Source: Bryoerythrophyllum caledonicum (Eukaryota > Streptophyta > Bryopsida > Pottiales > Pottiaceae). From it: a stretch of DNA of 64,000 nucleotides. The notes beneath the pieces were generated by a model that saw nothing but the letters and a program-made list of their open reading frames with translations, was not told the DNA's origin and did not search any database. The translations under genes and the position numbers were made by a program. Location of the stretch: contig OZ020521.1 of NCBI GenBank assembly GCA_963971425.1, positions 2,358,501-2,422,500 of the forward strand, in the 5' to 3' direction. Positions 11,029-56,194 of this stretch are shown here, piece by piece; positions within the stretch are counted from its first letter, which is position 1, and each line of letters opens with the position of its first letter.

Positions 11029-11087
11029 CTTCGTGAAAACTCTTCATTGGTATACACGGCCGTTGGTAACAAGAAGATGACGTTCCA

Positions 11088-13740: not shown

Positions 13741-13774
13741 AACGCAACACTCAAAAAACCTGTATATCATTACA

Positions 13775-15486: not shown

Positions 15487-15654
15487 AGCACCTTGCGCGA
15501 GGCCGTTCAACGTTCAAGAAGCACCTTCACAGGGTTTGAGCTTTCGGCGTCAACGATTTTGGATATGGTGATGGAGGACCACCAGCAGTTGGAGGGTGTG
15601 TGCGCGCACACCTCCAGTCTACAGTTGCTCCATGAGATGTTGTGCGAACTCCAT

Positions 15655-15790
15655 GGGAACGGCGGCTAGGGTTTGGTTGCGGCTGGGGTTTGGTTGCAGC
15701 AGCTAGGATTTGGTTGCGGCTAGGGTTTGGTTGTGGCGGCTAGGGTTTGGTTGCGGCAGCTAGGGTTTGGTTGTGTCGGCTAGGGTTTCA
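15655..15790. repeat. telomere-like minisatellite (GGCTAGGGTTTGGTTG)
   Basis: Six or so units of about 21-24 bp share GCTAGGGTTTGGTTG with a GCGGC or GTGGC linker. The core resembles the plant telomere repeat TTTAGGG but is not it. It ends at about 15790 with GCTAGGGTTTCAGG. Confidence 0.8.
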
Positions 15791-16869: not shown

Positions 16870-17860
16870 ATGATTAGGGATGCAAAAGGGATGTAGCATA
16901 TTTAACCCCTAAAGGATCAAGTGTCAAAAATGGGCTTCTTGAAAATTCGGTTAGGTTCCTATGGTGTCCATTTCTAACATTCATCTTTGAAAATTTTACT
17001 ATAGAAAGGCATTACCAAGACTTTAGGGGGATTACAATTTTTACCTAAATTGGACATTTGATCAAAAAGTTTTAGGGTTTTGAATTTCAAATGGGGAGAG
17101 TAGGCAAATTGGGCATGTCCAAAATCTATTGCTAGGACACTCTATTGAATGTGAGATTTTCAGTACTCGCAAGTAATATTATTTTCCTTGATGTTGTCAA
17201 AATAAGTTCTTGTCTTTAGTGAAAAATAACATATCAACCTAAGTCAAACATTTTCACACATTGGTTTTCATTGTTGGGCAAGGTACTAAAAAAACTTCTT
17301 GTTTTCCAAATAAAACCTAGATTTTTTTTTTATTTTTCACTTTTTATTTTTTCCACAACAACATGTGGTGTAAACCATCTTATTGACCATTTGGACTACC
17401 AATCTAAAACATATTAAGTTCACAAAAAATTAAAGTGTGAATTAACAAATTCTGAACTTCCACTCATTGCACACTTGTTTTGAATATGCTACACCCGTTC
17501 TCTACCTCTAAAAATTGGTGTAAAAGGAACTAACATCATCCTTAACAAGATGGTTGTAGATTTAGACCTTTTGTAGTGCAAAAACTAGGCACCAAGTGAA
17601 GTCAAAGTCTGTTGATCCACAACACGAAGGGAAGAATATGAACCATATGCTTGACTTCAAACACTATTATCTTTCAATCCGTGCGGTCAAAGTTATGATT
17701 TTTTTTAAAAAATATTACTTAATAAGTCTTAATTGAGATCCCACGGTCAAAACTAGAAATAAAAGTTTTTGTTTACTTTTTTGTTCGTTGCACTGGAATC
17801 CAACAATTTAGAAGTATTTTTGGTGTAACACTGTCATTGTACCTTCAGGGCTAAAGACTT
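16870..17860 (+). repeat. dispersed repeat R, copy 3
   Basis: It carries the full R landmark series (TTATTGACCATTTGGACTAC, GAATATGCTACACCCGTTCT, GAACTAACATCATC, TCTTTCAATCCGTGCGG, GAAGTATTTTTGGTGTAACA) in plus orientation. It ends about 200 bp before DUF7869 copy 1 and forms the left bracket of that block. Confidence 0.75.
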
Positions 17861-18073
17861 CGTGCAAGGAGTTAATGTTCTAAAAATTCTTAATTTTTTC
17901 ATTTCAAAGTAGTTTTTATCAAAAGGTCCAATATCATCATCATATTTTGAACAGTAAATGTGTGTTTAGAAATATATCTTTTATCAGATGAATGGTGCTT
18001 TGAAGGTTAACAATTGGTACATGTATTTTGACTAATGTGCAGCAATAATGTTCTTATTTTTTTAATAGTGTTA

Positions 18074-24011: not shown

Positions 24012-26549
24012 ATGGCGCCCAAGCAGTCGATACTAACTAAGTTTCTGTATGGTGGCAGTGGTGAGGAAGTGGACTGGCTAGGGGTGGAAATTGGAGAGTT
24101 GCGGTTTGGCACCACGTAGGTGGTGGAGAGCGGTGGTAGCGCAACGCCGCCCAATGCTGATAGTGAATCCGTTCTGCCTTTTTTGTGTGCAGGTGCAGCT
24201 TCGGAGGGCGATACGGTGGCAGCTCCCGCATCGGAAATGCCTGTGCATGCGAGCTTGGAGGTGGAGGAGCTCGACCCTATTGTAGGGACTGCCGGTCATG
24301 AAATGGCCCGAGCTCGCCGGCGTGGGTACGAGAAGAACCGGCATTGGCAGGATACTTGGGCGGCGCATTTGCCTTGGGCAAAATCTGTGGTGTCTCCCAA
24401 TTGAGAAATTCGGCAGGTTTGATGCAGAACTTGTTCAGAGGTTGAGGGGCGTGACAAGCTCTTGGTCCGGAAAATTGATTCCTTGTGGAAGCATACTGGT
24501 CGCCGGAAGGCCCTCGCAAGCCATGGGAATCTCCGAGCACGTCAGTTTTATTTTCTCTCTGGAAATGCTCACGCTAAAAATGAAAAGATTTATTTTGCTC
24601 GTCATGGTAGGGTTGGGAGTATTGTTGTGCAACAAGTACAAGCCGCTGCAATGAAAGAGAGGCGTCGAAAATTAGTCCAGTTCAGGGCTGTCTTTTTTCT
24701 GCTTCAACAGAGACATCCTATGTCCGATTTCTGTGATTTACGTGAGCTTTTCGAAGTCCTTTGCGTCCCTAATCTCCCGAAAAAACACTGGTCTGTTGGG
24801 TTGGGATGGAATATGGCTGATCATATTGCAATGACCCTCGCTGCTCACACTAAAAAGGTGATATCCAGCGCTCAATTCATCTCCCTGTCCGCTGACGAGG
24901 TCACTACAGTCGACCATCAGTCCTGGTTGTCTATTCATTGCTATGTCTGTGTTCAATTTAAAAGAGTCCCCATACTGCTGTCCTTGAGTCGATTAGAGGA
25001 GGGGAATGGGGCCGCGGCTGTTGGGAGTGCAATACATGAGCAGGTTGCTTTTGACACTGGCTTGGACGATGTGGCTTTGGCTGGTCGAATTGTATGCTTT
25101 GAGGCGGATGGGGATAGTTTATTCCAGGGATGCTGAAATGGTGTCACTGTAAGCATGAGAAACCATGCTGCTCCATTTATGTTCGGTGTGCACTGCATGG
25201 CACATCGCACGAACCTGGCTGTAGAGCCACTCTCTAATCTTCCCATTGTAGCGAAATTAGAGAACCTCTGCCAGGCCATGTTCTCTTACTTCAGCAAGAG
25301 TCCTAAACGGCATTTGGAGTTCCAAAAACTTGCCGAAATAGAGGAAACAGAGGGCCTTCGAATGCTCTCAAACGTCAAGACACGTTGGATTTCATTGCTT
25401 TCTCCTTTGCGCAGGATCATGGCGTAATACAAGACACTGTTGGTCAAGATGTGCGAGGACGCTGCAGTGAATGAGCCGGAAATGACTGCGAAGCAAATGG
25501 CTGCTCGGGAGTGTGCTCGAAGGAATTACGATTCCCTTTGTGATGTCGACACCTTGCTGGCCCTGCCCTGTATTCTGCCAATGCTGAAATCTGTAGATTC
25601 CCTAATGAAGTTTGCTCAATCCAATAACGTGTTTGTTGCTGATTATGTTGTTGCTATCCGGATTTGCCAAACTGAACTGTACATGATGTACAGTGACGAT
25701 GCCACGGCTTGGCAGCAGCAGCATTTCGGCATGTTTTTTGATATTCTCAACAATAATTCCTACGCTATAGCACAGGAGTGGGTTACTGACCTGAACATTG
25801 GAGATGTGTAGTTGTCATTCAGAATTGGTGACCATACGTATCCTGCTCACTCGATCTATGCCATCAGCGGGAAGAAGCTGCCGGTGTCTCAACCGGATTT
25901 GGAGCGTATCATTAGCTTAGTCAAGGGGCAATGCCAAGATGCCGCTGAGTTGCTACGGCTGGAACTGGACACCCGGTTTCCTGAGGTAGAACTCATGAAT
26001 GCTTTGGGAATAGTATTTCCACAATATTGGCTCCAAACTAACACTGATGATTTGTTCATTTTGCACCTGAAAACCTTGAAGGCGCAGTATAGTATGTGCC
26101 GCGAGGTGAACTTCGGCACCACTGTAGAACCTGAGATGAAGCAGATTGACCCCATTGTTGATGGGCAAAATCTTAGCTTGCAGTCCATTCTCTTTAAGCT
26201 CACAATGAAGTCGCACGCCAAGGCTGCCATGCAAGAACCGCACGATCAAAATCCTGTGACGAAGCTCTGGTCTCAGGTTGGCCAGAATGCTCTTATGCTC
26301 AATCCGCTTTCAGAGTATATAAAGGTGGCGGAAATTGCCATTATGGCTGTGCTAGGCGGTGTGGAAGATGAGAGGACTTTCTCCACGTTAAGTTTCGTGA
26401 AATCGAAACTCAGGAACCGCCTCGGTGGGCACCTGGACTCATGTGTCAAGCTGTATTCACAGCAATTCTTTACCTTGGGAACGTTCCCTTTCCATGCGGC
26501 GATGAGCAACTGGCGAAATGAATCTATGCGAAGGGGTGCGGATCAGTAA
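24012..26549 (+). pseudogene. hAT-family transposase, single frame with six stops
   Basis: One frame runs from ATG 24012 (MAPKQSILTKFL) to the stop at 26547-26549, 845 codons, with no frameshift. In-frame stops are at 24117 (TAG), 24402 (TGA), 24420 (TGA), 25134 (TGA), 25425 (TAA) and 25809 (TAG). Family signs are an N-terminal Cys-type finger (CRTCSEVEGRDKLL then DSLWKHTGRRKA), SLSADEVTTVDHQSWLSIH, the VHCMAHRTNLAVEPLS block, KTRWISLLSPLRRIM, and a C-terminal dimerisation region with GGVEDERTFSTLSFVKSKLR. hAT transposases move DNA by cut-and-paste in the nucleus. The stops are compatible with C-to-T changes, fitting a silenced, methylated copy. No 8-bp target duplication was identified. Confidence 0.88.
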
Positions 26550-30546: not shown

Positions 30547-30679
30547 TTAAGTATAAAATCGACTTTTTTACTTCTATGACCAATATAAATATTATAAATG
30601 TGCAATGTTATATTTGTTATATTCACTAAGTATATTGAATTTTTTTATTTTTTTATTAGAATCTAAAACATTGGCGGCA

Positions 30680-31999
30680 ATGGCAAGAATTAGTACACCT
30701 AAATTAAAACATTGCAAACAATTGATTAACATATATTTTAGAGAAAGACAAAAAAGAGTCTCAGATGACAATGATGAATTTTATATGCTCATATTTCTCT
30801 TATTTTTATCTTCATTCTCATCTATTCCAAAACCACGATATTATCTTCCAAATAGAACTATGTGGTTGGACTATCGGCAAAAAGTATTATGGGAAGAAAT
30901 TTGCACAAAAGAGTGGATGCGTAGAGGAGATCTTTTAGATAGCCGTTGGACAAAAGAGTTTAGAATGACTCATAGACAATTTTATAAACTTGTCGAAATG
31001 TTGTCTCCATTCATCACCAAAGAAAAGACAACACTGAGGGACCCAATTCCCAATGATAAAGTTTTGGCTATTGTTTTGCATAGATTGGCATATGGTGGCT
31101 TTGTATACATTGGTGGTCATTACTTGGGTGTATCGGCTGCAACCACATCCAAGTTCACCCATAAAATTTGTCAAGTTTTAGTGAATCAATTTTATAATCG
31201 TTACATCCGTATTCCAAAAGGTGATGAATTACAAGACATTATGATGGGTTTTGGAAATTTAACTGGAATACCGTATATGTGGGGAGAAATTGACAAAAGT
31301 CATATACGCTTAGCTAGAAAACCAACTACACAACAAATTTCTGCCGACTATTTGAATCGTTTGAAATTTCACTCAATATTATTACAAGGTGTTTGTGATT
31401 ATAGGCAGCGATTTTTAAATGTTTGTGTACAAGCACCTGGAGGTTGCCATAATGTTGCCTACCTTCGATCGTCTATATTGTGGAAAATGCTTCAAACAGA
31501 CCAACTTCCACATAATCAAGTTTACAAAGTAAATGGGAAAAACATCCAACCATATTTGCTTGGAGACTCTGCATATCCTCTACGGATAGGATTAATGAAA
31601 TGTTATAATTCTACTAAATGTGGAGATTCAAAAAAAGATTTATTTGATAAGAAGTGGAGAGCTGGTAGAGTTAAAATTGAAAATGCGTTTGGAATTCTTA
31701 AAATGAAGTTTCAAATATTAAAAAATATGAATGTTAAATTAGAATATGCTCCAATAATAGTCACAACTTGTTGTATACTTCATGACTTCTTAATTGAAGA
31801 ATGAGATGTTGGTAGTGATGACTTTGATAAAGAACTTAATTCTACTAAAGCCATGTCCTCAAAATTCATTCTAGAGGTTGAAAAAATATCAGAAAATATT
31901 GCTAAGCAAAATAGGGAAGTCTTATTTGAGAATTGGCTTGAAAAAAAATACAAAAGTGAAATCTTGAAGTTGAAAAGACAATTGGCAAAGAAAATATAG
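30680..31999 (+). pseudogene. PIF/Harbinger transposase (DDE_Tnp_4 type)
   Basis: The open frame 30605-31804 has its most credible start at ATG 30680 (MARISTPKLK); a TTTTTATTAG acceptor-like stretch precedes it. The DDE triad is clear, numbering from 30605: Asp230 in GEIDKSHI, Asp321 in LLGDSAYP and Glu359 in VKIENAFGILK. Family blocks GGFVYIGGHYLGVS and CCILHDFLIEE are present. A TGA at 31802-31804 ends the frame, yet coding-like sequence (DVGSDDFDKELN, ENWLEKKYKSEILKLKRQ) continues in phase to about 31999, so the true protein was probably 65 residues longer. Such transposases act in the nucleus with a Myb/SANT partner; one lies downstream at 33508. Catalytic residues are intact. Confidence 0.9.
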
Positions 32000-34240: not shown

Positions 34241-36663
34241 CTATGGAGGGGTGTTCGATGCGTCAGGAAGGGGTTGGTTGTTTTCCAGTTTTCGTTTATG
34301 CAGGAGTATCGACATAGCATGTTGAATTGCAATAGTGTTAATATTTGAAAAGGTGGTTTTGATTGAAGTCATGGGGATTTTAAATGTTTCTTCAACGGTT
34401 GTCATTGAGGGAATGAAGGTGGTGGCTCTAGCACCCGCAGTGATGACAATGAGGGGGTCTACTTTCCATCCAAGTGCTTGAATATCGTCAAGTAATGGTT
34501 GGTATTTATTTGTTTTGTTTGCAATAGTGTCTGGAGAGAATCTATCATTGCAATATGTGAATTCAATAAACTGGATAGTGAGACTAGGGTCTATGTGGTT
34601 TGGTGGGGGGGTCTTTGTATGAAAGTCCTCTAACACAAAGTAGGTCCGGTTTGAATCGAGCATTGCAGTGGCACCTTTGAGTGCGACATATGCATGGTAA
34701 TAGCCAAGGAGGGACCGTATTTTCTTGTGGGTTGTCATTAAAGGTTCCGGCATTCATGAGAATGAAGCACCGGGATTTGGTTGATGATATAAGTAGTTTA
34801 CGAATAGCCCATACGGCTTTGTTATGTCTTTTGACAATTAGTGAGTGTATATGGGGGTTTTGGCACTTGAGTAAGACATGTAGCCATGTGTCCGAGTCCG
34901 TGGTGTTGCAAATTGGACATGTTATTGTAGGAAATCTTTCTATTCCAAAGAAGAGTTGTTTGCGGGCATTTCCCATGTATTGTCCGGTGCGGAATTTGAT
35001 TAGACATGTGATTTGTGGATCTGTAATTATGGGATTTTTCCAAAAATTGTTGGACAATACGTTGTGAATGTTTGGGTTGCCGGTCCATTTATCAATATTG
35101 GGGAAGTTTTCTGTAAGTTTTTCTAGGTTATTTACAAGATCATGTTTTTTGAGGTATTTGTCCAAGAATCGTATGGGGCCTTTATCGGGAGTTTCTCCCA
35201 TAGAGGGCCATTCATATCTATGAAAGTAATATGGGGTGGCATGGGCGTGTTCGTATGGGTGTACGGCATTCTTGTGGGTTTTTTCTCTTCCTTCTTTTGC
35301 TAGTTTGTCGGCTTGTTCATTACCGGCGATATTAGCATGAGCTCGGACTTTATGGAGTGTAGTAATTTGTGTGCGATTTTAAAGCATTTCAACCATAGAT
35401 GTAAGGATAGTTTTGTCTGGATGACTGTTGTGTAAAGTGGGGTGTTTAGTGTGTGTATTTAGGAGATGTAATACATTTATGCAATCTGTAAAAATGTGAG
35501 CCGGTTTGTTTGGGTATTGAGTGGTGATTATCTTAAGGGTTGTGTGTATGGCCATCATTTTGGCTCTTAGAATATTTTATAGTCCATGCAGTATTTTGCC
35601 TAATTTTATTTGTTTGGTTGAATTGTATACCCCATAACCGGCCTTTTCTCGGTGCCAATGCCCCGGGCTTACTTTGGTTGGTTCTTTAAAGGAGCCGTTA
35701 GTATAGTAGCTAAAGTTGGGGTCAAATTTAAGGTCGGAATTTATTTGGTAATGGGGAAGGGGGGGGGCTCAATTCGGTAATTGGTATTGCGGAGATGTTT
35801 GTGTGGGGGGTTTTAGACCATTTTTTGTTACGGTTTACACGGATTGAAATAGGTGTGGGAGGGGCAATTGCGGTGTTTACCTTGTTAATGTTTAGATTTT
35901 TTGCTATCAAAGTGAGATGAATGAGGTTTTCTAGAGTCCCTATCTTTCGAGTTTGGTGATGTATACATAGGATACGTAGGGTTGCTGGTTCAAGGCGGGG
36001 CGTTTGTATTTGCGGTGGTATATTGGATTTTTTGTAAGTCATAGAGTCTGCTTCAAATAGTACTATGATGTGAGAGTCCGGGGATGGGCCTAGGTGTGGG
36101 TTGGAGTTGTGGTACCAATGTGTGTCGGGAGTAATAATAATGGTGATGTTGTGGTTGGGATCATTGTTTGCCGCTAGGGGTGCCCAATGTGTTGCTTGTT
36201 GTGTTTCTACTTCGTTGTGAGGGTGCGCAAGGCTTATTCAACTCCATCTATAATCAAAAGCTTTCCCAAGAGAACCAAAAATCTTATCACGTTCGAATGG
36301 GGAGTAGAATTTTGAAATTTTTGTGGAGCATGTAACGGGGGATGAGAAGTATGAATGTGTGATATTTAGAGATGTAATAAGGTAGTCTAAGATAGGGTCG
36401 GGTAATGTGTAGGGTGCATTTTTAAGGGGGTCATTTTTGGGTGTACGGTATTTATATCTTTGGTATAGCCAAACAATTTCAGTTTCAAATGTTTGGGGTA
36501 TTGGTTCAATGTTAATGTGGGTTTGGAGTGCGTTGTGATATTGGTTCCACAGCCATTGTAGTCTAGCCAGTGGTATGGTTATTAGGTGTCTACCATTACC
36601 TTCGTATATGTGGGCATTATCTTGTTGTATTTTGATTGTATTTGTTTGTGTGAGGATGTCCAT
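34241..36663 (-). pseudogene. LINE ORF2, C-terminal part: RNase H and Cys/His motif
   Basis: Pieces of one coding region: FYSPFERDKIFGSLGKAFDYRW (36240-36300), ADSMTYKKSNIPPQ (about 36030), an RNase H-like block (HIFTDCINVLHLL at about 35480; KVRAHANIAGNEQADKLAKEG at about 35300) and CPICNTTDSDTWLHVLLKC (about 34900) of the zf-RVT kind, followed by VKRHNKAVWAIRKLL. RNase H removes RNA from the RNA/DNA hybrid during retrotransposition. Frames shift between 36237 and 35201, and a TAA interrupts the RNase H region near 35375, so the copy is defective. Confidence 0.75.
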
Positions 36664-37401
36664 TTCGGGGTTGCATTCGGTTGTGAAGATGTTAAGGAGG
36701 GGGATAATAAGAGGTGGCGTGACAGATGTTCTATCTTGAGGTTGTGCTTGGGGGTGGTGTATTTATATGATGTTCAAGTAGTAACTGTTTTGAGTTCTAA
36801 GATAGTATTGTGTGAGGATTTTGGAGTTATGTAAGGAAGCGTTTGGGTTGTGCCAAGGGAAGAGATTTCTTTGCGGGAGCCATTTGGTGTAGGTGGTGTT
36901 GTTGTGGGGCCAATGGCATAGGTATGATGTATATTGTTTGCTTATGTTGTTGGAGTCAGTGTACTTTCTATGTTTGTGCGCGGTTATGTTGTTTATTGGG
37001 TGCATGGAAGGATTTTTTAATATGTGTGGTGGGGGGGCATATGGTTGAGAATGTGTCGGGTTTGGGGGGATTAATGGGAGGTTGATGTTGGGGTGGATGT
37101 CATTGTGGCCAATGATGTACGGGTCTTTAAGTGTGTAAGGTGGGGCGTGAATGGTGCAAGGGTTTGGGCATATAGGGAGGCATGGAGGTTGACAAAATAA
37201 TTGTTTGGCAATATTTAGTGCACTTTTTATTAATTTGTGAGGGGTACCGTAGAATGTTTTGTAGCTCTTTTCGTCCATAAGTTGTGTTCCATTTGGAAGT
37301 GTAATTTGTTTTAGATCGGTAATGTTTGCGGAATTCCTTTTTTGTAGGAGTTTGGTGGATAATTGTCGGTCAAGTCTAGGGAGGTTATGTATTTCATTTG
37401 C

Positions 37402-38942
37402 CTAATTTTGTTCAAGCGGTGCGGGGTCTAGTAGGAAATCTTCTAGTGTGCTTTTTAGAAATGTTTGGCCTACTGTTTTGAGTAGAAAAAGTGTGTGGGT
37501 AATAGGGGACCGAAGGCAATTAAATTTTTTAAGTCTTTGGAGGTATTGTGCTCCTCCATAGATGGCAAGTATGTGCCTAAGGAGTCTACTATAAATTAGT
37601 CCTAGTCGTCCTTTGTCGTTGAGTGCATTTTGGAGTTGTTCACGAATGCATCGGAGATAGGCATTTTTTAGGGAAAAAGCTTCTAATCCAAATAGTTCAT
37701 GGGGGAGTTGTGTTATGACATTGGGCATACACTTAGGGAGTCCACATACTTTCTTTTGTATGGCTATTATTTTTTTGTCAAGTTTGTTTATTCCAAGGTG
37801 TATGTAGGGTTGGTTTTGGTTGAGTACCGGAATTGGTTGGTTACGATAGTGGATATTGGTAGCTTGTATAAGGGCTTTGAAGGCGGTCGGGTTTATTTTG
37901 GATTTGTTTGGGCATCCAGTTACGGCGCATTTTTGGACCCCAAGTTCCATTCCGGTCCATAGACAAAATTTGTCTATTTGTCTAATTGAATTTGAAGTGG
38001 TTTAAGACGTCCGGAGATGGCCGCTAGATCGACGGCATATGCGGCCGAGTTTATGGTGACTTTTGAGGTGCCAAATGTGTAGCCATTATTACCTCTTTGA
38101 AGCCATCTCAATAGAGGTTCTAGAAAAATAATAAAGATGTATGGGCTCAGTGTATGGCCTTGGATGGTACCACGTTGAATGGGGATAGGGCGTGTATTAC
38201 CAAAGAATTCTCTAGTGTATGTAGTGGTAGATTGGGAGTATATATTGCCAACCAATGTGACTGCGTCTTCCGGATACCCAAGATCGCTCATAATGGCTAG
38301 CAATCGAGGATGGTCAATGGAACCGAATATGTTTTTGAAGTCAATGTAGAGTATGTAAATGTCTTTATTGGGGAATTTTGCATCCTCAAGAGCGGCAATG
38401 AGGGTTTGAAGTTGCCGTGTGGTACTTCTCTCGGCTCTAAACCCTTCTTGGCTTTCGTGTAATATTTGGTGTTTTTCCCCGTAGGCCGATAATATTGATG
38501 TTAGTGTGCTAGTATATAATTTGTAGATGGTGTTAGCTAAGGCAATAGGTCAGTGGTTGGGTAGCACAGATGGATTGCATAATGATAAAAGGTCATGAAA
38601 TCTTAGGGGCATGTTTTTTAGAATTGAATTAGGTATATGGTCCGGGCCGGGGGCTTTATTGGTTCCCAAATTTTTTAGGCACATGTTGTATGTGTCTCTG
38701 TTATAATATGTGTGGAGGGGTGTTGTTGGTTTGCCTCTTTTATCAATGGTAAATCCGTCCAAATCGTGCCATGGGTATTGCCTGACTCTGCTCGTGCATG
38801 TTGATGTATGTAGAGGTTGGAAGTGACATGGGGGGGTGGATGGTCTATTGTTTATGGATTGTTGAAAATGTATTTCGTGTGCGATGTCATCTAGGCTAGT
38901 TAGAATGTTATTGTTTTGATCTAGAATACAGTCTAGTGGCAT
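37402..38942 (-). pseudogene. LINE ORF2, reverse transcriptase domain
   Basis: RT blocks are in order: NKAPGPDHIPNSILK (about 38640), PIALANTIYKLYTS (after a TGA at 38550 where Trp is expected), GFRAERSTTRQLQTL, LYIDFKNIFGSIDH, PIQRGTIQGHTLSPYIF, and the catalytic box AYAVDLAAI, where YAVD stands for YADD, so one catalytic Asp is lost. A frameshift lies near 37970 (QLDK to IDKFCLWTGMELGVQKC). The thumb-side sequence PIPVLNQNQPYIHLGINK is typical of the group. The enzyme would copy element RNA at the nicked target. Confidence 0.85.
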
Positions 38943-39212
38943 GTTTGTGTTATTTTTAAAGACTTTTCTATTAATCTTTTTTGGGCTAGTTTCGTATAGT
39001 TGACAATACTTAGAAATGGATTTTTTGACACATTCTCTTGCATATTTTGTAGTAATTTTCCTAACTTCTTTGTTGGCAGCTTTTGCAATGGTTGCAATGG
39101 TTTCTAGCCAGTCTTCGTGAGGGGTGTTGGGTAGTGGTACTTGTGGGATTTGGGGGTGACGGAGGTTTTGTATCTCGGAGAGTAAGGGGTGGGTTCGCCA
39201 ATTTTGGTTAGT

Positions 39213-40930
39213 TTAAGCAATATAAATTATTTTACAAATAGTGTGGTATGTGGCAAGATGTTTCCACTTTCTGGCCAGTTTTCTCGGGAGGTACCCCCCT
39301 TGTTTCGAGGTTCTAGGTATGAGTTGTGGAATCGGGGGTGCTTTACAAGTCTTTTCTAATATAGTAGAAATTTCATCAATAAGTTTGTCAAGAGACGTAC
39401 AAGCTTCTTGCCATTGTATGTGTGTGAGGTGTTGGTGGTTAGAAAGAGTATCTGTAAGGGAGTCTATTTGTAGTGAATTTTTTTCAAAGAATATTGTATT
39501 GAAGTAATCAAGGTTTTCTTTTGGGATGGGATTTAGTATTTTAATATTATATGAGTTGATGGTTGTGGGAGGTCTACTTATAAGGGTGTTGTGAGGTATA
39601 TTGAGTTGGATTGGGAAGTGGTCCGAGTTTAAGTTGGCTGTGGTATTGGTGGTGGATGTATATCGGGTGTGGTTAGGTGTTTTAATGTAAAATCCATCAA
39701 TTAGGCTAGTGTGTGTGTAATTAAGTCCCCCTTGCCGAGAGTATGTTGTATCGGTTGGGATTAAATATAATTTTAGGTCATCCGTAAAAAATTTCCATTG
39801 ATAGTCTATGTCAAGTGGGGTGGTAAGAATTCCTCCGTTTTGTCTTCCGATAAGGGCGATATCTCGGTTAAAGTCTCCGCAGAGTATTATTGTATGGTTA
39901 GTGTGTGTATTTATTTGTGAGGTGATGGAATTTTGGATCTCCGGAATAAGTCTAGAGTCTTCTTTGTGCGAGGGCATGTATAGATGAAGAATGATCCATG
40001 GTTGGAGGGGTCGGTTAGTAATTTCAATGATTTGAAGATATGGTGATATATTAGTCGGGGTAGGGATTTTAGTAATATTCCCAGGGAAGGCATATGATTG
40101 GTGTATGAGCATGAGTAGACCTCCTCTTGCCGATGTATATGGCCTTTGTTGTTGGATACATCGTGTGAGAGAATGTGTGTTATTAAATATAAGTTTATGA
40201 TCGGGGAATGTTTTTTGGATGTATTTTGTGGATTTAGTAGTGGTTAGTTTAGTTTCTTGTATGGCAATTATGGCGGGTGGTGTGTTGGTGTGGGCAGTTA
40301 GATTGTGGATGCATGGTAAAGCTGTGTTTAACGTTGAGGCGTTCCATGTCGTTATATATGTGTTTCTATTGTCTGTAATGTCGTGGTTACAAAGTGGAGG
40401 GGAAATGTAGGCGGGTGTCGGGGTGGGGTGCGTGTAAGCGTGGATTGGTTCAAAGCATCTAAGAGTTTCAAGGATGAGATTGTGCGGGAAGTAGGGAAAT
40501 TTTAGTTGTAGTTCATCGGGGGAAGGGGGTGGGGTTTGGCTATGAATAAAGTTATATAGGTCATTGTGTAGAGAGGTTTTGTGTTCAAAAAGGTGTTGGT
40601 TTTCTTCTAGGAATTTAGTGTATGAGTGGGGTGTGTCTATATGTCTTTCAAGGGGATTGTGTAGAGAGGATAAGGTGTTTAGTAATATATTTGTCCAATG
40701 TGTTGGGTTTGTGTTGGTAGAATATTGATTGGTGATATTGTTGCATTCGTCTATTGAAGGGTGGAGGGTGGTAATTATGGCGAATAGGATATGTGAGGAT
40801 GGGTGGTTGTTGTCTTTTTGACGTATGTAGCGGGAAATGTTGGGGTAGAGGGTGGAGTAAGTTTGGTGGAGTATGTGATTACTTTTTAGGAGTGGCGCAA
40901 AGGAAGATGCTAGGTGTTGATATTTGGGAG
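39213..40930 (-). pseudogene. LINE ORF2, APE-type endonuclease domain
   Basis: From the first Met at 40112 downstream the frame gives GDFNRDIALIGRQNGG and LNSDHFPIQLNIP, the hallmarks of apurinic-like endonucleases, which nick the target. Upstream the same frame stays open (TWNASTLNTALP, AIIAIQETKLTTTK) toward 40.9 kb, giving the usual N-terminal EN strands. It ends at a stop at 39213 where the RT linker should follow. It is well preserved apart from that stop. Confidence 0.85.
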
Positions 40931-40940
40931 GGGTGTAGAG

Positions 40941-40995
<55 letters not shown>
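40941..40995 (+). repeat. (GTT)n microsatellite
   Basis: About 18 GTT units followed by a short ATT run, between LINE ORF1 and ORF2. Confidence 0.97.
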
Positions 40996-41161
40996 ATTAT
41001 TATTATTTTGTTTATGATTTGTTTGGTAGTATATATATATACTTTAATTATTTTATATGTATTATTATTTTTTTGGTAGATTTTTGATAATTGTGTAGGA
41101 TATATTTTAATATATAAATATACTATATTATTTTTCCTAGTTATAGCGTTGTTTGACGCTA

Positions 41162-42759
41162 TTAGTTTGTCGTATCCATTTTGTTCTCAATGGCTCGTTG
41201 TTCACGTTCTGTTGCTTGAGTTTCTGCCGCCATGTTGGTTGCAATAAGTTGGGACCGGAGAGTTGACATTTCTCCTCTTAGGGATTTGACCATGTTCGCT
41301 TGTACCATGTCCGCATATTGCCTTGCTTCTTCTATAATCTCTCCTTTCATGGTCTTGATTTCTCTTCGGAGTTGTTGTAGGGTGACTCCGTTACCTCTGT
41401 TTGGGCCATTCTCCAAGGCAATCACCGCATTAGCTACAGTCGCATTTACATCCGTATAACCTAGTCTCGTTAATTCTTCAGCGCTGGGTTTGTTGCTGCC
41501 ATCTAAGCTCTTGGAGTGAGGGATAAACATAATGTATTTTCCATGTAGTTTTTTACTTTGTTTAACAAATTTTTTGTAGACCGCCGCATTTAGACATTCA
41601 ATATTGCAAGTCCCTACATGTCGGCCATATTCAAGTTTGAAGAATGTGTCCACCACATTCTCCTCCTCAAGTATGGATTTTATTCCCTCCACAAGTTCTT
41701 TTTCGTTTTTTGTTTTGTTAAGGTTCTTTGCAATGAGGATTAGGCAGTTCTTTTTTGCAATCTCATCCTCATTCATTTTCTGGGTTGCAAAAACAGGCAC
41801 AAAAACCTCATTATAAAATGAGACTTTATAGTCCTTTATTTTAGCAGCTTGTTCCGGGGAGGGAGTTTTGATCCATGCAAACTCTGAAGAACTCTTTTTT
41901 TCCACTCCTGTTACTTTGAAATCATAGCTTCTTGCAAAGCTATCTTTCACAATCTCTTCATGCAAGTTGTATGGTTCTACATTGACAAGACTAGGACTTG
42001 TTATTTTTACCGATAGGAGATGTGAGAAGGCCAAGGAGTCATATGCCTTGCATATTTTTCCTTGGTGTGGGATTCCTTCATTCAAAGTGAGGATGAAAGG
42101 TCTTATACCTTGCAATAAGCCTTTGCCATCGATACTCACGTTTTTTAGGTGGAGTTTTACTACACCAGTCCAATTGTTGGATTGGTGGTGGCAAAAAACC
42201 GCTATTGGTTCACCAATGCGTGTCCCTGTAGGTATCCCCATCTCTCCAAGTCTTGTTTTAACCATGTCTAGTACCAACTGTTTTGTCCATAATTGGTTTC
42301 CCAATTCAAAGTAAATGGAGACTTGATAGTCCAAGGCAAATGGAGACTTGATAGCCATCTTCATCCACCTCAACTTCACTTGGAAATTGGGTGAGATTGA
42401 AGTGGTTTCCTTCCTTCCCATTAGCCTGTTTAGAGGGCCATTCCTCTTGGAGGACATATGGGAATGATGGCATTGCCTCAAAACTCTCACATGCTTCTTT
42501 CTCTTTTTACCCGTATTTTACCAAATCTTCTAGAGTAACTAGAGGCACTTTTTCTTCTCCATTTTTCCTTGCAATGATATTCATTGTTTGGAAGCTTAAC
42601 CACTATTTGGTGGAAGGCAAACTTGTTGCCTTCACCATTTTTTGGGTGGAGTTTGTGATAGCCAAAGCATTTTTTGTTGTATTCACAAGGCTGGAGTTTT
42701 CAAGCACTTCAACAAATAAACGTTTAGAGGGAGTAGCCGTCGTTTGTTGCTGAGACATG
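41162..42759 (-). pseudogene. LINE ORF1 protein (RNA-binding, coiled-coil)
   Basis: The original start is probably ATG 42759 (MSQQQTTATPSKRLF). The coding sense passes through several phases before 42300: a TAG near 42603 is followed by coding-like NIIARKNGEEKVPLVTLEDLVKYG, a TAA, then EWPSKQANGKEGNHFNLTQ. After a 25-bp tandem duplication (42313-42356) the long frame down to 41162 carries VSIYFELGNQLWTKQLVLDM, an RRM-like middle and a C-terminal coiled coil (about 41400-41180). ORF1 proteins bind element RNA. The duplication shifts the frame and is a simple inactivating change. Confidence 0.7.
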
Positions 42760-46798: not shown

Positions 46799-47170
46799 AT
46801 GGAGCCATTATTTTTGATATGGGAAGACCAAGAAATCTTGATGTCAGAAGATAGATGGCTAAGTACTTCAATAATGGATGTTGCATTTAAAATATTATAT
46901 GATGATATTTTAGTACATAGAGGATTTCATCCTCATGAAACTTGCTTTGACGGCAACTTGAAGAAGCCAAGACCACCATTGCTAAAACCATGTCTCCAAT
47001 TTTTTCATACAAAGAGTATATGCATTGGATGTTAATATATTTTAATCCCACTAGCGATCTCTTTCATCAATGTCATGTATATGACACTTTGGGTAGACAT
47101 GATATTGATTTAAATTTTTTTGAAAAGATTTGGTATTCCTGAAAATATAAAATAAAAGTACATTCATGTA
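46799..47170 (+). pseudogene. Ulp1-like (C48) cysteine peptidase, N-terminal part
   Basis: The frame gives LFLIWEDQEILMSEDRWLS, the region that in Ulp1-like proteins carried by transposons reads EDREIL...WL.D.I..AA..LL. A later piece (HQCHVYDTLGRHDIDLNFFEK, about 47065-47130) fits the strand before the catalytic Asp. The gene is broken by at least one frame change and is cut at 47170 by the Tc1 element; the remainder is at 49973-50147. These peptidases cleave ubiquitin-like modifiers; their role in transposons is unknown. Confidence 0.6.
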
Positions 47171-47732
47171 TAGTGGGGTACCAATCAAATGTCGTTTTTG
47201 AATTCGCAGTGAGAAAAATTTCAGTACTGCCAACTTTGAAAGCCTCCTGAGAGCTCAAAAATTGGTATTTTACCACGAAAGTTTTACCAAAGAATTATCT
47301 TTAAGTTAATTACATGCGTGACAAATTTCAAGGCCAAAAGATTCACCGAAAAAAGTTATTCAAAATCTACCAACATTGGTAGCTGTGGAAATTTTTTCAC
47401 TGCTGCCAACTTTGACAGCCTCCCAAAGATTGAATTATTATTTTTTTACCATGAAATTTTTGGAACAAAAACATATTTATGTTAATAACATATGATAAAA
47501 ATTTCAAGGCCAAAAGATTAATACAAAAAAAGAAATCTACAATCTACCAACATGTGTAGTTGTGGGAAACAATGGGGGAAACCATTTTATTGCTACCAAC
47601 TCTGACACCCTCCCAACGGTTGAGAAATTGTCTATTTACCATGAAATTTTTGGCACAATATGATCTTTATGGTAACAACATTCATGCCAAATTTCAAGGT
47701 CAAAAAATTTATACAAAAAAAATATTTACAAT

Positions 47733-48743
47733 CTACCAACGTGTATGTCCTTCATTTGCCTCAATCACTACTTGTAACCTAGAGGGCATAGAATGACATA
47801 GTTGAAGGAGCTTTGTACCATTGATTAACCTCCACTCTCTTTCAATAACTACCTTCAAGTCATCTAAATTTTTTGGACATATTGGGCCATGTTGCACAAC
47901 ATCTTTCAAAATCTTCCTAAGGTTCTCAATTGGATTGAGATCAGGAGAATTTGCACGCCAATCGAGCTTCTCCAAAAGGTGTGTTTGTCTCCATTCTTCA
48001 CATACTTTGCTACGATGGACATGTGCGCCATCTTTCATGAGCAATCCCTGTGGCACTCTACTCATAAAATGAAGCAACTCGACATTGTAGACCACTTCAA
48101 CAAAATCCTTAGCAGAACGTCTATCTTTGGGCATAAAAACAAGTTGTGACTTTTGCCCTCCAGCAAATGCACCCCAAATCATCAAAGAAGTTCTCCCACT
48201 CTTAAAAGTTGGAACTATAGAACTTGATGAATATCGCTCAAATGCATTTCTCCAAACATGAACTTGTTTAGAATTTTTTCCAACTTCAAAGGTAGACTCA
48301 TCTGTCCAAACAACTCTCTCCCATTCTTTTATAGTCCACCCACAATACTTTTGAACAAATGCCAGTCGTTTAGACATGTGACGATGTGTCAAAAAAGGTT
48401 TTCTAACAGCAATTCGATTGAAAATGCCACTCTCATGTAAGGCCCTTCAAATAGTCAATCTAGACACTTGAGTAGAACATATATTAGTGATCTCAGAGAG
48501 TTTCGAGCGACGATGAGTTTTTGAGACACGTATAATAGCACGGACATCTCTATCACTAAGCTTTTTAGCATGACTTCCACCACAAGGTTTGCACTTGTAG
48601 GTTCCATCTTCTTGAAATTTCTTCACTACCCTCTGAACTGTTCTAACATGGACTCTAACAATAGCTGCAATGTCAACTCCTATCTTCCCTGCCTCATTCA
48701 AACCTACTATGCGAGCACGAGTTTCATCTGAAATAGCCATCAC
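47733..48743 (-). pseudogene. Tc1-type DDE transposase with one stop
   Basis: About 337 codons in one phase from ATG 48740 region (MAISDETRARIVGL) to 47733. The N-terminal half has two helix-turn-helix regions (GVDIAAIVRVHVRTVQRVV; THRRSKLSEI). Catalytic motifs are VVWTDESTF (Asp), LLMKDGAHVH (Asp) and WRANSPDLNPIENL (Glu). A TGA at 48449-48447 splits it; Arg (CGA) is the likely original. Apart from this, it is nearly whole. It would cut and paste the element at TA sites. Confidence 0.9.
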
Positions 48744-49384
48744 TCAGTGACCATGATCTAGCCTTCACTTAATCACCATGATCCAGCCTCACTCACTGAG
48801 CATATATATAACCTCACTCAGTCATCAGAAAAAAATCTCACATACCTTCAATCACTCACCATCATCCTGCCTCACAGCCTTCACTCATTCACCAGACCTA
48901 ACCAGTCACCACATGTAAGTTATAACCTCACTCACTCTTAAAGAAGATCTCACATACCTCCATATATCCTCAGACACTCATCCCATGCCTCATCACTCAG
49001 TTATCACATAGCCTAGACTTACTTAGTTAACTCATCTTTCATGCACTCAATCACTCATGTTCACAAAGTTTCAATCCTGTGCTTAGAAAATAATCACCCA
49101 TCACTTGCTTCTCTCATCATCCCACATCCCACCTCCTATAATGCTCTATTGTAAATGCAAGCATTCTTATTGAGAGAAAAAAGCTTCTTCATGCATATAT
49201 GGTCTCCAATTTTAAACAAGTGCAGTCTTTTAGATGTGACAAGTGCACACAACTAAATTTGGCTATCCTTGAATTTTTTGAGAAGCATTTATGATTAGAG
49301 ATTGCATCATCTGGAGAATTTCAATCTAGAAGCATGATTGTATGACATACTTCAACAATTTCAATGTTTTTAATAAAAGGTATC
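48744..49384. other. Tc1 element 5' spacer
   Basis: Upstream of the transposase on the minus strand; non-coding, with degenerate CACTCA-rich tandem sequence (TCACTCACC-type words) at about 48750-49100. Confidence 0.6.
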
Positions 49385-49972
49385 TCACAACTACACACAT
49401 TGGTAGATTGTAAATGATTTTTTTTGTATAAATTTTTTGACCTTGAAATTTGGCATGAATGTTGTTATCATAAAGATCATATTGTGCCAAAAATTTCATG
49501 GTAAATAGACAATTTCTCAACCGTTGGGAGGGTGTCAAAGTTGGTAGCAATGAAATGGTTTTCCCCATTGTTTCCCACAACTACACATGTTCGTAGATTG
49601 TGGATTTCTTTTTTATATTAATCTTTTGGCCTTGAAATTTTTATCATATGTTATTAACATAAATATGTTTTTGTTCCAAAAATTTCATGGTAAAAAAATA
49701 ATAATTCAATCTTTGGGAGGCTGTCAAAGTTGGCAGCAGTGAAAAAATTTCCACAGCTACCAATGTTGGTAGATTTTGAATAACTTTTTTTCGGTGAATT
49801 TTTTGGCCTTGAAATTTGGCATGCATGTAATTAACTTAAAAGATAATTCTTTGGTAAAACTTTCGTGGTAAAATACCAATTTTTGAGCTCTCAGGAGGCT
49901 TTCAAAGTTGGCAGTACTAAAAAAATTTCTCACTGCAAATTCAAAAACGACATTTTGATTGGTACCCCGCTG

Positions 49973-50147
49973 TACAACAACAAGCAGATTTGTCATTTTG
50001 TGGATTGTATGTCATTGCCTTAGCAGTGAGTATAGCATACTTTAATGATTTTGAGAATGCAATTTATGAGTTGACACAAATTCGTGCGCATTTGTATAGT
50101 TGTATTTTGAAAAGGAAGATGATACCATTTTCTAGGATTGTATTATG
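49973..50147 (+). pseudogene. Ulp1-like cysteine peptidase, C-terminal part
   Basis: Right after the TA duplication the frame reads VQQQADLSFCGLYVIALAVS, the Gln/Cys box of Ulp1-like peptidases (catalytic Cys in the CG pair), then LTQIRAHLYSCILKRKMIP and a stop. The pattern QMR.HL..C.....M.PFP is the family's usual C-terminus. It continues the gene that begins at 46799. Confidence 0.7.
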
Positions 50148-51348
50148 AGATTTAATCAAAAGGCTGTAAAGATGTTGGCCCATTTTATATTTTTAATAAA
50201 AAATCATCAATATTTTATTTTTGAAATAAGAAACTAGTGTTTCATTTCATATTACTTAAAACTAAAATAATGATTTTCAACAAAATTCCGTTTCAAAAAG
50301 ATTTTTGAAGAAAAATGCATCAACGATGCCATGGTAGTCTTCATTTCACAATTTCCGTGAAATAATTGCATGTTTTTTTAATAAACATTTCTTTTATTAT
50401 GTAGTGCATGAATTCATTTCATCCAATCTTAAGTATCTCCAATTAAAAACACAATTTTTTCTCAATTCTAATAAATATGTGTGTGTTGATAACATATTTT
50501 TATAAAATACGTTGGCTATAAAGGTTTTTATTTAAGACCCCAAATTCACATATTACAACACACTTATGTTGTTTCCAATATTTCTACTTTCATTTGGAGG
50601 TTGACCACAAACCAAATCTTAATTTTCATAACATTCTTTCAATTTAATCCTATATTCCTTGTTGAAAAACTCACCCTTTCTCCCCTAGTGCGGCTACCTC
50701 GAGTGTAAATGAAAATTGGTTCTTGATACAAGGGTGGAGAGAGTGGGGGCAGAAAAATGGGTGCAAAAGTGCGTTCGGCCACTCCAAGTGAGCCTATGAC
50801 CGTGGCATCAATCTAAATTTTCAATCAATTGTATGCTCTAATTTCTCATCAAATATAAGTGGAATTTTAATTTTTTTAATTTCAGAGATGAGATCATGTC
50901 TTGATCATGTTACAAAAATCACAGATTTTTTTTGGTGGAAATTTGAATTTATTGTGATTTTCTGAAGAAAGTGAAGAAAATTCACAAATTACATAATTTG
51001 TATTTAATATGAATTTTCTTCAAATTCATATTAAATACGATTTTCACAAATTATGCTAAAAAATTCTGAAAATTTCACCAAAGGTGGACATTATAGTGCC
51101 AAAACTTGTGGTGTAAATGAAAGTTCCGTGTTCGGCTAAAATCAGAACAATGGTTGTAGGTCCAAGTTCAAATTGCAATAACTTATTCAATTTTACGTTG
51201 TTTTTTAATTTTCAAAATGGTATGAAAACTAGACATCATTGGCTTTGTTTCATTAGTTGGACTCAAATTCAAAAAATACCATTTTGTTGGCTTGAATTCA
51301 GGTCTAGAGCTAAAGCTAGAAGTTTCTCAATTTCATTGTTACAAGGCA
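50148..51348. other. AT-rich non-coding stretch
   Basis: No supported gene. It probably holds the right flank of the Harbinger element and the left flank of DUF7869 copy 2; no clear terminal repeats were seen. Near 51000-51050 there is a small inverted repeat (TTAATATGAATTTTC / GAAAATTCATATTAA type). Confidence 0.4.
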
Positions 51349-54300
51349 AATTCAAGAAAGATCTCGTGAGGTCATGACATGTGAATTGGGAAGGACAATA
51401 GAATTGCTCTCTGAAAGAAGGGATGTGGTGGGCTTAGCAAATAGGGAGCATGCATTCAAAAGCGGCATGGAATTGAATGGATCGAAGTTGTTCCCGTTCG
51501 AGGTGGCGGTGCGTATCACTAGGGTAGATGATGCATTGCATTGGACCGGAGAGATTGTAGGAGAACAACTTGGCATGTGTGTAGGCTTGATCATTCGTTG
51601 GCACCAATCTTTGCTACGTACAGTGGTTGTAGAACCGGGTATTGCAAGTGCCCCTGGTGACCTTGGATCACGAGCAGGGCCTACTGGAATGATGGCCTCA
51701 GAATTTGATTTATCCGAATTCATCAACACACCAGGATCAACTGAGAGGTCTCGACGCAGTAGTCAAGCTTCTAACGCCATAGATGAAAATTCACCGTTTT
51801 CCCAACCTACTCCCTCAAATATCCAAGATTTGCCCCATGTAGATGGATTTACTTATGTTAGACCAGCACGTCGTCCCTATTCTATGCAAAATAGGAGAAG
51901 GAGAGATTAAGGAGAGCCATCATTGATAGAAGCTGCACCATCGAAGATATCCCTTAGAAGCGTGCAAATTGCAATGGCACAAGGAGGATGCAAACGGAAT
52001 TGTTTGAGGGACGTTCCAGCAAGGTATCTATTGGACATGCAATATAATGCATGGGCCAATGAGTTTTCAGTTCGAAGTACGTGGATGAGACATATGCTGG
52101 TTTCTTTTTATACAAGGACGGAAGGAACTCGTCGTGACAAGTTTGTAACAAAGTTAGATGGGAAAGAAGTTTGCAATGCTTGCTACGCTCTTGGGGTTGG
52201 ATATTCACAAAGGCGTTTTAAGCAATTGAAGAAGAATTGTCTAATATATGGAAGAGTGACATCAATTCACAGCAATACCCTTTCAGATCCGATTAGAGAG
52301 AGCACTAGAATGTCTGCGGCAAAGGCTTGTTTTAAATCGTTTGTCGATGAAGCTGGTTGTCCTCAACCTCATCGCTGTATTCGCCGTAAGAGTGACAACG
52401 AAGTGGTGCCTCTTATTCTCCTTCCTATGAATACTGCCAAATTTGATATATTCAATTACGTGAACGAGGAGGTGAAGAGAATTTGTAATGGAGAAACCAT
52501 TTCTATCAGTTCGTTCCGAAGGATGTGGCGCATCAAGTATCCCCACATTCAGGTACCTCCATTCTCGAGATTCTCAAAGTGCTATCATTGTTGGGAGTAT
52601 AAATGTGCCATGGAGGGAACCACCAATGCAGATGCAAGGATAAAGATAAAGGAGTTGTTTATGTTGCATTTGCGCAACCAGATGGAAGAACGTAGGCATT
52701 ATCGGATATTCAAGAGGTCGTGTTATATTAGCCCTGAGTTGTACATGTGCATCATAGTGGATGGCATGGACCAAAACACAACCATGGTACCGAGGATGCG
52801 TCAGACTGTGAAGAACATTGAACACCGGTGTGTGAAGACCCACCTGTGCGGAGCTCTTGTACATGGGATCGGTTTATATTGCGACGTGTGGTTTGGGACT
52901 CACCGCAAACATGATAGCAACCAAGTCGTGAGTACATTGTTGTACGTGATAGGAGATGTGTTGCGGAGGAAGGGCTTTTTGCCACCAACATTACGAATCC
53001 AGGCGGACAACTGCACACGGGAGAACAAAAACATTTATATGTTTGCTCTATGTACTATATTGGTGGGATTGGGGTTTTTTCAAGAAGTGGAGCTATCTTT
53101 CCTCATAGTGGGCCATACACACGAAGATATTGATCAACGTTTCAGTTGTATATCAAATACGTTGAAGAGGTCGGACGTAGGCTCGTTGAAGGAAATGATG
53201 AGTCTTATAGAACAAGGAACATCTCCTACGGAGGCATTTGTTAGCGCTCGGCTGCTAGAGAATGTATGGGATTGGAAATTGTTCATAACTCCTCACTTAC
53301 TGACAGGTCAGGATTCATTAGTGGGCATAATATTTCCGCACCATATGCGATTCTATATGGACAATCGAGAAGGGACTCGTGAGGTTCGAGTACAACACAA
53401 GCATTATTGCAAGGATGCATGGGGACCGGAGGCGGGGACAAAAACTTTGAGGTCGTTGCCAAGTAGGGATGAGCGACCATCATATGCGGAAGTATTTGGA
53501 GCGGACGAGCGGGAATTGAAGGCGTTGGATGACTTCATCGTATATAAACAAAGATGCATTCAAAGGTTGCACCATGAGGACAAGAATCGTGAGGCAAAAG
53601 TAGAGGCTGAAAGATTGAAACTCTATTTAACTGAATTTCCACACAAAGACCGTAGCAATGAGCCTCGTACCTCACCATTTTGGCCTTCAGAGTTCTCCAA
53701 TATCAGACCTACAGGGAGTGCATCTTTGGATGTAATAGATGGTACAAGTGAAGAAAATCGCGAGATAGATGTCGTAGAGCAGGTAGTGGCGATGCTTCCA
53801 AATGCTGAGGCTCGAGGATACTTTGGTTTCTCGTAGAGGAAGACCCTCTAATCAAGCACTGCGTAGGGCACAACGAACAAAGCGCAACTATGTTGAGGAA
53901 AGAGCCGAAGAAGGAGCAATGTATGAAGGTAATCACGACCCATTTCCACCATTTAATCCACAATCTGATATCTAATGTGGACAATTTGTAGCCTTGAGTG
54001 TTGATCGAGCAAAAATAGAAGGCGGTGTACCATTCTATGTGAGGAAAGTGATTGAGGAAGGAAAAAGCCGATGGAGACTTAAGATAAAGGTTTGTTGGTA
54101 TTGGCCCATCATCCAAAGGGGGGTTGTTGATGGACATTGGTCTTCAGCACAACGGTATGCAAATTGCATGGATTCATTCTGGGAGTCATCTGGGGAGAGC
54201 CATAGTTGGGTAGAGAAAGATGCATGCATTTTTTCATGGATAGACTCTCCAGAAATAATTATGTCAGGGGCCAGCGGGTGGAGAAAGCGCAATGTATTTG

Positions 54301-54428
54301 GAGTGCAGGTTGAAAGCAGGATTCATATTTTTCAATCGACAAAGGCTCACATACTACAATATATTGCAATGCAAACCGAAGCTATCGATGACGACCATTT
54401 GCAAGCAGCCCTAAATTCTATGGAGTAG
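51349..54428 (+). pseudogene. DUF7869-type putative transposase, copy 2 (with 3' part)
   Basis: The coding sense starts near 51374 (MTCELGRTIELLSERR) and runs to a TAA at 51908-51910 (copy 1 has Ser there), then continues in phase over 51923-53836. In the latter part, counting from 51923: a Cys cluster (CKRNC at 23-27; KCYHCWEYKC at 219-228), Asp280 in IIVDGMDQN, Asp362 in QADNC, and VGHTHEDIDQRF at 396-407. After about 53830 the sense moves to another phase with an AT-hook-like SRRGRPSNQALRRAQ, meets a TAA at about 53972, and ends with a domain at 53990-54428 (FVALSVDRAKIEGGVPFYVRKV, IKVCWYWPI). The first part of the gene, before the homology with copy 1, is missing. RNase H-fold transposase activity is an inference. 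Confidence 0.75.
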
Positions 54429-54954
54429 ATAGTGTGCCTTTTTGAGAGTATACTAGTTATGTATGGTAATTGATATATAGAGTATGTGTAAGAGTAGTAT
54501 ATTCTAAGGGTGATGTAAGACGTTATGTCATTAATCCTTTAGAGTAAACCTGTGTTTACTATTGGTGCTAAGTCCAATTGTAGAAGCATCTATATTTAGT
54601 TCCCACCATTGTATGCATTATGTTCTACGTAGAATATCTTTTAACCAACTGCCAACCCTTGCATAAAGTATGTTTTTTGTGATTACGAGTGTTGGTATAC
54701 TACAATCCTTCAAATCTATCTTTGAAATATTGTGAAACTATATTAAATACACATTTATCTAGTATTAACGAGGGGCCACCACAAATTAGTTGAAAATGCC
54801 AAAAAATCGCTTCCAATATGAATAACCATGATTGTACATAATATTGTTGCAGAAGCTCAATTTTTTTTCCTTTGGAAAACATTTTTTTTCTTTGATTTTT
54901 TTTTTTTTTTCAATTTTGCCACTTTTGTTTGCAATGGCCGCCGTTGTACCCAAG

Positions 54955-55005
54955 TGCACTTTTAAATGGCCAAGTGCATAATTGCTTAATTGCGTGTTTG
55001 TATTG
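54955..55005. repeat. inverted partner of the motif at 9176-9230
   Basis: AAGTGCAC, then GGCCAAGTGCATAATTGC and TTAATTGCGTGTT, the reverse complement of the segment at 9176-9230 apart from a short internal insertion. It lies 0.53 kb beyond the DUF7869 reading frame. Confidence 0.6.
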
Positions 55006-56194
55006 AGATCCGTGTTACAAGCATTTTCTTTCTTAGATAAAACATGATTACCTCAATGAGGCCAATTTCATCATCATCATCTAATGCTTGTACATACAAG
55101 GAACTCTCCAAATATAAATTGGATGAAAATAGTTGTTTAGTTGATTATCATCCAACAATGTCATCCGAGAAGCCAATTTTTGGCTGCTTCGGCGTTTAAG
55201 GGTTAAGGAAGTCTACACCTTTAAGTATACATGAGAGTAACACTTAAATGTAGGAATTGGATATTGTAAAGAAGGAATCAATTGAGTGTGATGAGTATTG
55301 AATGTATGTATCTTGTCACCATGTGTAATTTAGCTTGTGGAGCTTGGCTATCTAGTCATATAAATGAGTACGAAGCTAAATATGTTCCTTGGATATAAAA
55401 TAATTAGGAGTTCCTTTGGCAATTCAAATTGATCAACATGGGTGACTTAATATTTAGACTTATTTGGTAAGCCTATAAAGAGTAATTAATTATCCTACAT
55501 GGTTATCTATTAGGTAAATTAAAATCTAAAAGACAAATATACATTTTTAGTGACATAGAAAGTACCTTGAGTAAAGAATAAAAATGTAGACTAATTTGGA
55601 ATATCACTCTCAAGTTAGTTTGAATTTAAAGAATAACATATCTTGTGCACCATTCTTTATTTTTTTTAAAGCAATAATGTTGGATGAGTTAAAATAAAGC
55701 TTGAGGATAAAAGAACTAGCTTACACTTCAGATTGTCTAGTTGTTTGACAAATATGACATGTGACTACAAAGGCTATTGTTAAATTGGTTGATTCAAGGA
55801 ATCAAAAACACGTTTATGTAACTAAATGAATGTACAATTGGAATAAATTGGAAAATAGTTACATTGTTACTTGCACATGACCTTACATTATACAAGAGAC
55901 TAGATAAAAAGACTTTCTCCAAGTCATTTAAGAGAATGACTAAAAAACACAAATAAATGGGAAAATATAAACACAACTACATAAATGAAAACTTAAATCT
56001 TTCAACAATTTCATACATACTACAATAAGTTAGAATGCAAACGCATGTGATGCAATGGTTTAAGAGGATATTTTTGTATATATAAGTTTTGTATAATGCG
56101 TATAATATTGTGATTTCCATTGTCAATCTTTAGATATACTTATTAAAAAAAATTACTCTTTCAACGAATGTTCAAAATATAGTTTACTAGATTA

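Follow-up and report, generated by a model that had tools for sequence, protein, structure and literature searches.

The moss Bryoerythrophyllum caledonicum carries two genes of the DUF7869 type in the 64,000-nucleotide window analysed here (contig OZ020521.1, positions 2,358,501 to 2,422,500), which raises the question of whether these genes belong to a mobile element and, if so, to which kind. An earlier note on this DNA had described the gene as a probable transposase that had moved or been copied recently. Both copies are present. Copy B matches the Pfam family PF25273 at E = 6.9e-50, and the DUF7869 matches to this family score 169.8 and 172.9 bits (cut-off 26). Copy A and copy B align without gaps over 2092 bp (18180-20271 against 51342-53433), with 1969 identical positions. 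'Nearly identical' is a somewhat strong wording for 94.1% identity. The flanks of the copies differ, as had been noted. Our analysis indicates that both are dead, end-truncated remnants of one DNA transposon family. The idea of recent movement holds for a mobile element; the moving unit, however, is a two-gene element of about 12-14 kb and not the gene of 2.1-3.1 kb.

Comparison of 51349-54428 with the genome yields matches that span nearly the entire query at 92-100% identity (40 scored of 1140 candidates). The borders were mapped in 18 loci around other copies (L009-L026). The right border of homology lies at 54995-55007 in all 17 loci that include this side. On the left, 16 of 16 loci of full width (L011-L026) begin to align at 51340-51342. 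Because these loci continue to match one another further left, copy B must be truncated at 51342. The alignment of copy A to 16 oriented genomic copies stops at 20270-20271, which shows that its right end has been lost. Its left end is preserved: 39 non-self long matches to a query covering 7500-10800 start at window positions 9150-9182 (40 scored of 8532 candidates), and, in reverse complement, the end at 54998 recurs in the window exactly once, at 9177, with 22 of 22 bases identical (0 occurrences in shuffles). The terminal inverted repeats (TIRs) are 27 bp long. The left one occupies 9177-9203 (+), the right one, placed by TIR comparison, 54972-54998 (-). Copy A is a left-hand remnant (9177-20271, +, orientation set by its DUF7869 gene) and copy B a right-hand remnant (51342-54998, +, from the alignment borders in other loci). 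The borders given in the earlier note for the moving unit do not stand, with copy A starting at 9177 and copy B ending at 54998.

Copy A contains a second gene, ORF-A, on the opposite strand (9778-13821, -), located by tblastn with open pieces from two other loci (L029 and L032; 90-95% identity). Stops and frame changes, the latter near 11037 and 13175, disrupt it. In copy A, the DUF7869 gene (18035-20251, +) lacks its 3' part; it contains a TGA at 18920 and ends with a TAG at 20249, shortly before the breakpoint at 20271. The gene of copy B (51342-54428, +) is interrupted by a TAA at 51908 and a frame change before a TAG at 53834, near which it is out of frame; the original stop is at 54426. 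The stops are reciprocal, copy B being open at the position of TGA 18920 and copy A at that of TAA 51908. This agrees with the earlier observation, and its reading as recent deaths of one active type fits both copies.

A 200-N assembly gap separates the two genes of copy A (15287-15486). Gaps of the same size occur at a comparable site between both genes in L020, L022, L024 and L025 and in the extended loci L018, L019 and L021. This region, repeatedly unresolved by the assembly, adjoins GGGTGTGCGCGCGCACA and TAGGGTTT-like repeats. Elsewhere in the assembly, the contigs C894 and C821 carry full-length psaA/psaB-like frames without stops and are apparently copies of the plastid genome; the host is accordingly photosynthetic.

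The window contains several other elements. A Tc1/mariner-like element at 47167-49976 has inverted terminal regions of about 580-600 bp composed of repeated units of about 180 bp; these regions are 97-99% complementary in parts and flank a DDE_3 transposase fragment (47736-48446, -). A 415-aa open frame of the PIF/Harbinger type (30557-31801; DDE_Tnp_4 and Plant_tran) is possibly intact. A long LINE-like stretch (34244-42517, -) shows strong strand skew and several stops, and includes an RVT_1 reverse transcriptase fragment at 37977-38549. Two plus-strand frames at 24423-26546 resemble hAT transposases by eye, the second of which (25812-26546) gave no Pfam match at E <= 0.01.

The ends of the family are abundant in the genome. 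Allowing up to 2 mismatches, the terminal 22-mer is found 1058 times in forward and 1076 times in reverse orientation in the 437-Mb assembly (2134 in total), compared with 0 matches for the reversed 22-mer used as control. Six left and seven right ends were compared further inside: the motif TGCACTT is found at base 21 in 10 of these 13, and the inverted AAGTGCA in 13 of 13, at base 32 in left ends or base 37-38 in right ends. Among 100 sites listed of the 2134, 28 convergent neighbour pairs lie within 30 kb. Twelve of these span 11.3-14.7 kb and thirteen 2.2-7.1 kb, with single pairs at 9.9, 19.1 and 25.1 kb. The short pairs, 2-7 kb apart, presumably represent non-autonomous forms with internal deletions. 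Two counts weigh against the transposon reading: among the 100 exact end sites listed, 44 lack an exact convergent partner within 30 kb, and 4 pairs of neighbours are oriented otherwise. Identity reaches 99.9-100% across about 7.4 kb among three copies located on different chromosomes. The family is abundant and has been mobile recently, and outside the window many of its copies still have open genes.

Both ends were compared for 22 pairs, and 21 were scored; the insertion at C6:2.24 Mb was left out as its left slice contains no exact 15-mer. An exact 4-bp target site duplication (TSD) is present in 18 of the 21 insertions, and the other 3 have one mismatch. Duplications of 3 and of 5-10 bp were found in 0 of 21 and of 2 bp in 2 of 21. 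For mismatched left/right pairs, the rate of 4-bp agreement is 0.7%. The empty sites prefer CAC-N4-GTG, with a mean of 3.7 of 6 matches versus 1.4 in the surrounding flank; at least 4 matches are reached in 12 of the 21 insertions versus 3.7% of 874 flank positions. The preference recurs in 16 flanks of other insertions, where a mean of 1.7 of 3 bases at outward positions 5-7 agree with GTG, compared with 0.9 at control positions. These flanks include both surviving window ends. L031 and L037, already among the 21, were left out, and 11 loci of L010-L037 without an exact 19-mer end contributed no flank.

TIRs together with a TSD of fixed length place the family among the TIR (class II) DNA transposons. 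Since copy B keeps only one end, a Helitron, LINE or Crypton was also considered; these were dropped because the left TIR and the TSDs were found. A DUF4283 open frame with a zinc knuckle by eye (L024:1081-2217), probably a LINE ORF1, was considered as a part of the element and rejected: it lies about 1.2 kb outside the right border. The window copies, 31 kb apart and overlapping in the middle only, are what might remain if a single host locus had been rearranged or segmentally duplicated. That such an event explains them is extremely improbable, as copies across the genome have unrelated flanks and exact ends, and the 4-bp TSDs contradict it. Copies lacking sharp borders did not occur among those examined.

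Which protein moves the element? The 641-aa frame of copy B (51911-53833) contains IIVDGMDQN at residue 281, QADNC at 364 and VGHTHEDIDQ at 400 (52751-53137, +). The core aspartates D284, D366 and D406/D408 are 82 and 40-42 residues apart, in line with the spacing of about 80 and 40 originally reported. An alignment of six proteins shows them unchanged in 6 of 6, among these the two window copies and two proteins that share no more than 42% and 47% identity with copy B. These divergent relatives from the same genome keep IIDGMDQNT or IVDGMDQNT, QADNCGRENKN, VGHTHEDIDQRFS and C224-C227. The Cys cluster was also correctly recognised, both pairs (C88/C91 and C224/C227) being invariant in the six-protein alignment. 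An AT-hook-like RRGRPS can be seen by eye in the intact relative L018; the corresponding stretch of copy B is out of frame.

The order of the motifs is that expected of an RNase H-type DDD/E nuclease. The earlier note had proposed a D-D-(E/D) site on such a fold; the fold was not confirmed. Two AlphaFold2 models have very low confidence (mean pLDDT 32.4 and 43.3), and Foldseek returned no match at E <= 0.001 for the second. A PDB profile search gave chance-level matches only (best E = 0.18). A crude Chou-Fasman profile, which carries no weight in the argument, suggests a strand before the first Asp, mixed structure before the second and a helical tendency at the third motif. Searches for DUF7869 relatives in viral contigs and prokaryote genomes found none.

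Open DUF7869 frames of 1066-1087 aa are numerous (150 scored of about 3600 candidates). Six open copies belonging to this TIR family, 1066-1081 aa long, yield dN/dS values of 0.16-0.25 in all 15 pairs, which places the protein under purifying selection. The copies were chosen for being open, a choice that excludes stops but not missense changes. The DUF7869 protein is very probably the transposase of the element, because its gene is found together with TIRs and a 4-bp TSD, is under selection and has near-identical recent copies. The transposase-like behaviour originally suggested is borne out by the sharp borders, the multitude of end sequences and the many open frames.

Complete elements contain DUF7869 and ORF-A as divergent genes on opposite strands. 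An element at C8:15.05-15.06 Mb has both ends and the TSD GTTA; its DUF7869 frame is 1077 aa long, and an ORF-A frame of 1096 aa lies on the opposite strand. Of 1653 candidate copies of ORF-A, 54 were scored, and 17 of these have the 1348-aa frame free of stops. Five open pieces (841 aa) gave dN/dS values of 0.24-0.39 in 9 of 10 pairs and 0.64 in one close pair, which places ORF-A under purifying selection as well.

Searches of Pfam, NCBIfam, PHROGs and the PDB gave no significant match for ORF-A. For pieces of the divergent L084 gene, the chance-level rows were PF03347 in Pfam (E = 0.056, 13.4 bits, cut-off 27) and NF053644 in NCBIfam (E = 0.035, 13.4 bits, cut-off 450); the remaining rows had E values of at least 0.3 in PHROGs and at least 0.6 in the PDB. 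A permuted, methyltransferase-like motif order, suspected by eye, was rejected: hhalign against four phage ParB-methylases gave a probability of 0.1, while the positive control reached 97 for the methylase part. The ORF-A side of this alignment had few sequences, so that a very diverged methyltransferase domain could escape. A stretch reminiscent of ParB by eye (EPVDGQH..AAC...VVYDD) has no significant family match. In hhalign, the ParB part likewise gave 0.1; the positive control also missed ParB here (1.2), and the method is therefore powerless on this part. No relatives of ORF-A were found in viral contigs.

A divergent ORF-A homologue, 21-40% identical in the parts that align, is situated on the opposite strand about 3.3 kb upstream of one divergent DUF7869 gene (L084, L082). 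In the 5-kb stretch L085 near a second divergent DUF7869 gene (L083), an ORF-A homologue was not found; a divergent ORF-A is thus seen next to one of the two divergent DUF7869 genes sampled, where both genes may lie in one element. The present TIR, with up to 6 mismatches, is absent from the first 2400 bases of the divergent element in L084, where the left end was not found.

It is conceivable that ORF-A is the real transposase and DUF7869 a captured host or regulatory gene, given that ORF-A is selected and encodes a long protein that is open in nearly a third of the scored copies. We consider this assignment quite improbable. An acidic triad was not seen in ORF-A by eye, and no transposase family matched it significantly. 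DUF7869, in contrast, has the acidic motif set and the lower dN/dS. It is also better conserved among divergent relatives, with 42-47% identity as against 21-40% for the single divergent ORF-A. A transposase role for DUF7869 remains our preferred assignment, and a class II (TIR) transposon of about 12-14 kb, with the DUF7869 protein as transposase and ORF-A as a selected accessory gene, is in our assessment highly likely to describe the family correctly.

In this arrangement, the DUF7869 protein would bind the 27-bp TIRs and then cut out or copy the element; a cut-and-paste mode would be our first expectation. It would join the element to a 4-bp staggered break centred in the weakly palindromic CAC-N4-GTG target, with D284, D366 and either D406 or D408 of the 641-aa frame presumably forming a D-D-D catalytic site. 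ORF-A would act as an accessory protein, most likely by binding the element's own DNA or chromatin. As ORF-A is selected too, a sharing of the catalytic work with DUF7869 would also be compatible with the sequence.

Second genes are known from other plant transposons. VANDAL and CACTA elements carry a regulatory one (VANC and TnpA, respectively) and resemble the present family as autonomous plant TIR elements with a non-transposase gene. They differ from it in TSD length, which is 2-3 bp in CACTA, in transposase family and in gene order. For MULEs, TSDs of 7-12 bp are described (PMC10741241).

Closer agreement is found with the Sola superfamily. Sola elements are described as having a DDD transposase, a 4-bp TSD and TIRs of 11-1124 bp, and as measuring mostly 2-9 kb, with some exceeding 15 kb (PMC10741241). 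They occur in Physcomitrella (P. patens), for which Sola1 is recorded (PMC10741241, PMC9033089). The Sola1 group, including that of Physcomitrella, and the present family are alike in their 4-bp TSD, short TIRs (27 bp here, within the Sola range), large size and moss occurrence. A DDD-type motif may be a further likeness, with three invariant Asp motifs present here in a protein whose AlphaFold2 models are of very low confidence. Sola1-1_Ec32 from Ectocarpus is a large element of 21.5 kb in which the transposase and a single accessory gene are encoded on opposite strands, which is the layout seen here (PMC12477816). Its accessory protein has 1104 aa and combines ParB-like and DNA methyltransferase domains (PMC12477816), whereas ORF-A (1348 aa) has no significant match to either.

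The anatomy agrees with Sola wherever it was compared, except for the accessory-protein domains, which were not found, and the element would work like Sola and is probably a member. This likeness is one of anatomy, as described in the literature. On balance we favour placing the element within Sola, with DUF7869 being a Sola transposase that Pfam does not label as such. The DUF7869 elements might instead form a superfamily of their own, distinct from Sola and from other named superfamilies. The papers searched do not mention 'DUF7869', no Pfam transposase domain overlaps DUF7869 at E <= 1, and complete elements hold a second, selected gene with no significant family match, all of which would suit a separate group. 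It is nonetheless rather unlikely, considering that the length of the TSD, the TIRs, the large size, the opposite-strand accessory gene and the putative DDD motif all correspond to what is described for Sola and Sola1. Similarly doubtful, to much the same degree, is the fuller proposal of a separate superfamily of giant two-component transposons that inserts at CAC-N4-GTG, has spread recently and uses the divergent, selected ORF-A to bind or shield its own DNA. Probable membership in Sola remains our preferred classification.

With these results, PF25273, so far a domain of unknown function, can be tested as the transposase of a family that is abundant and has moved recently. The ends, TSD and target site of the element are defined well enough for a transposition assay. 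The second selected gene, which has no recognisable domain, bears on the question of why the opposite strand of giant transposons holds accessory genes. For other plant genomes, the findings suggest that DUF7869 gene models should be checked and masked as transposon genes.
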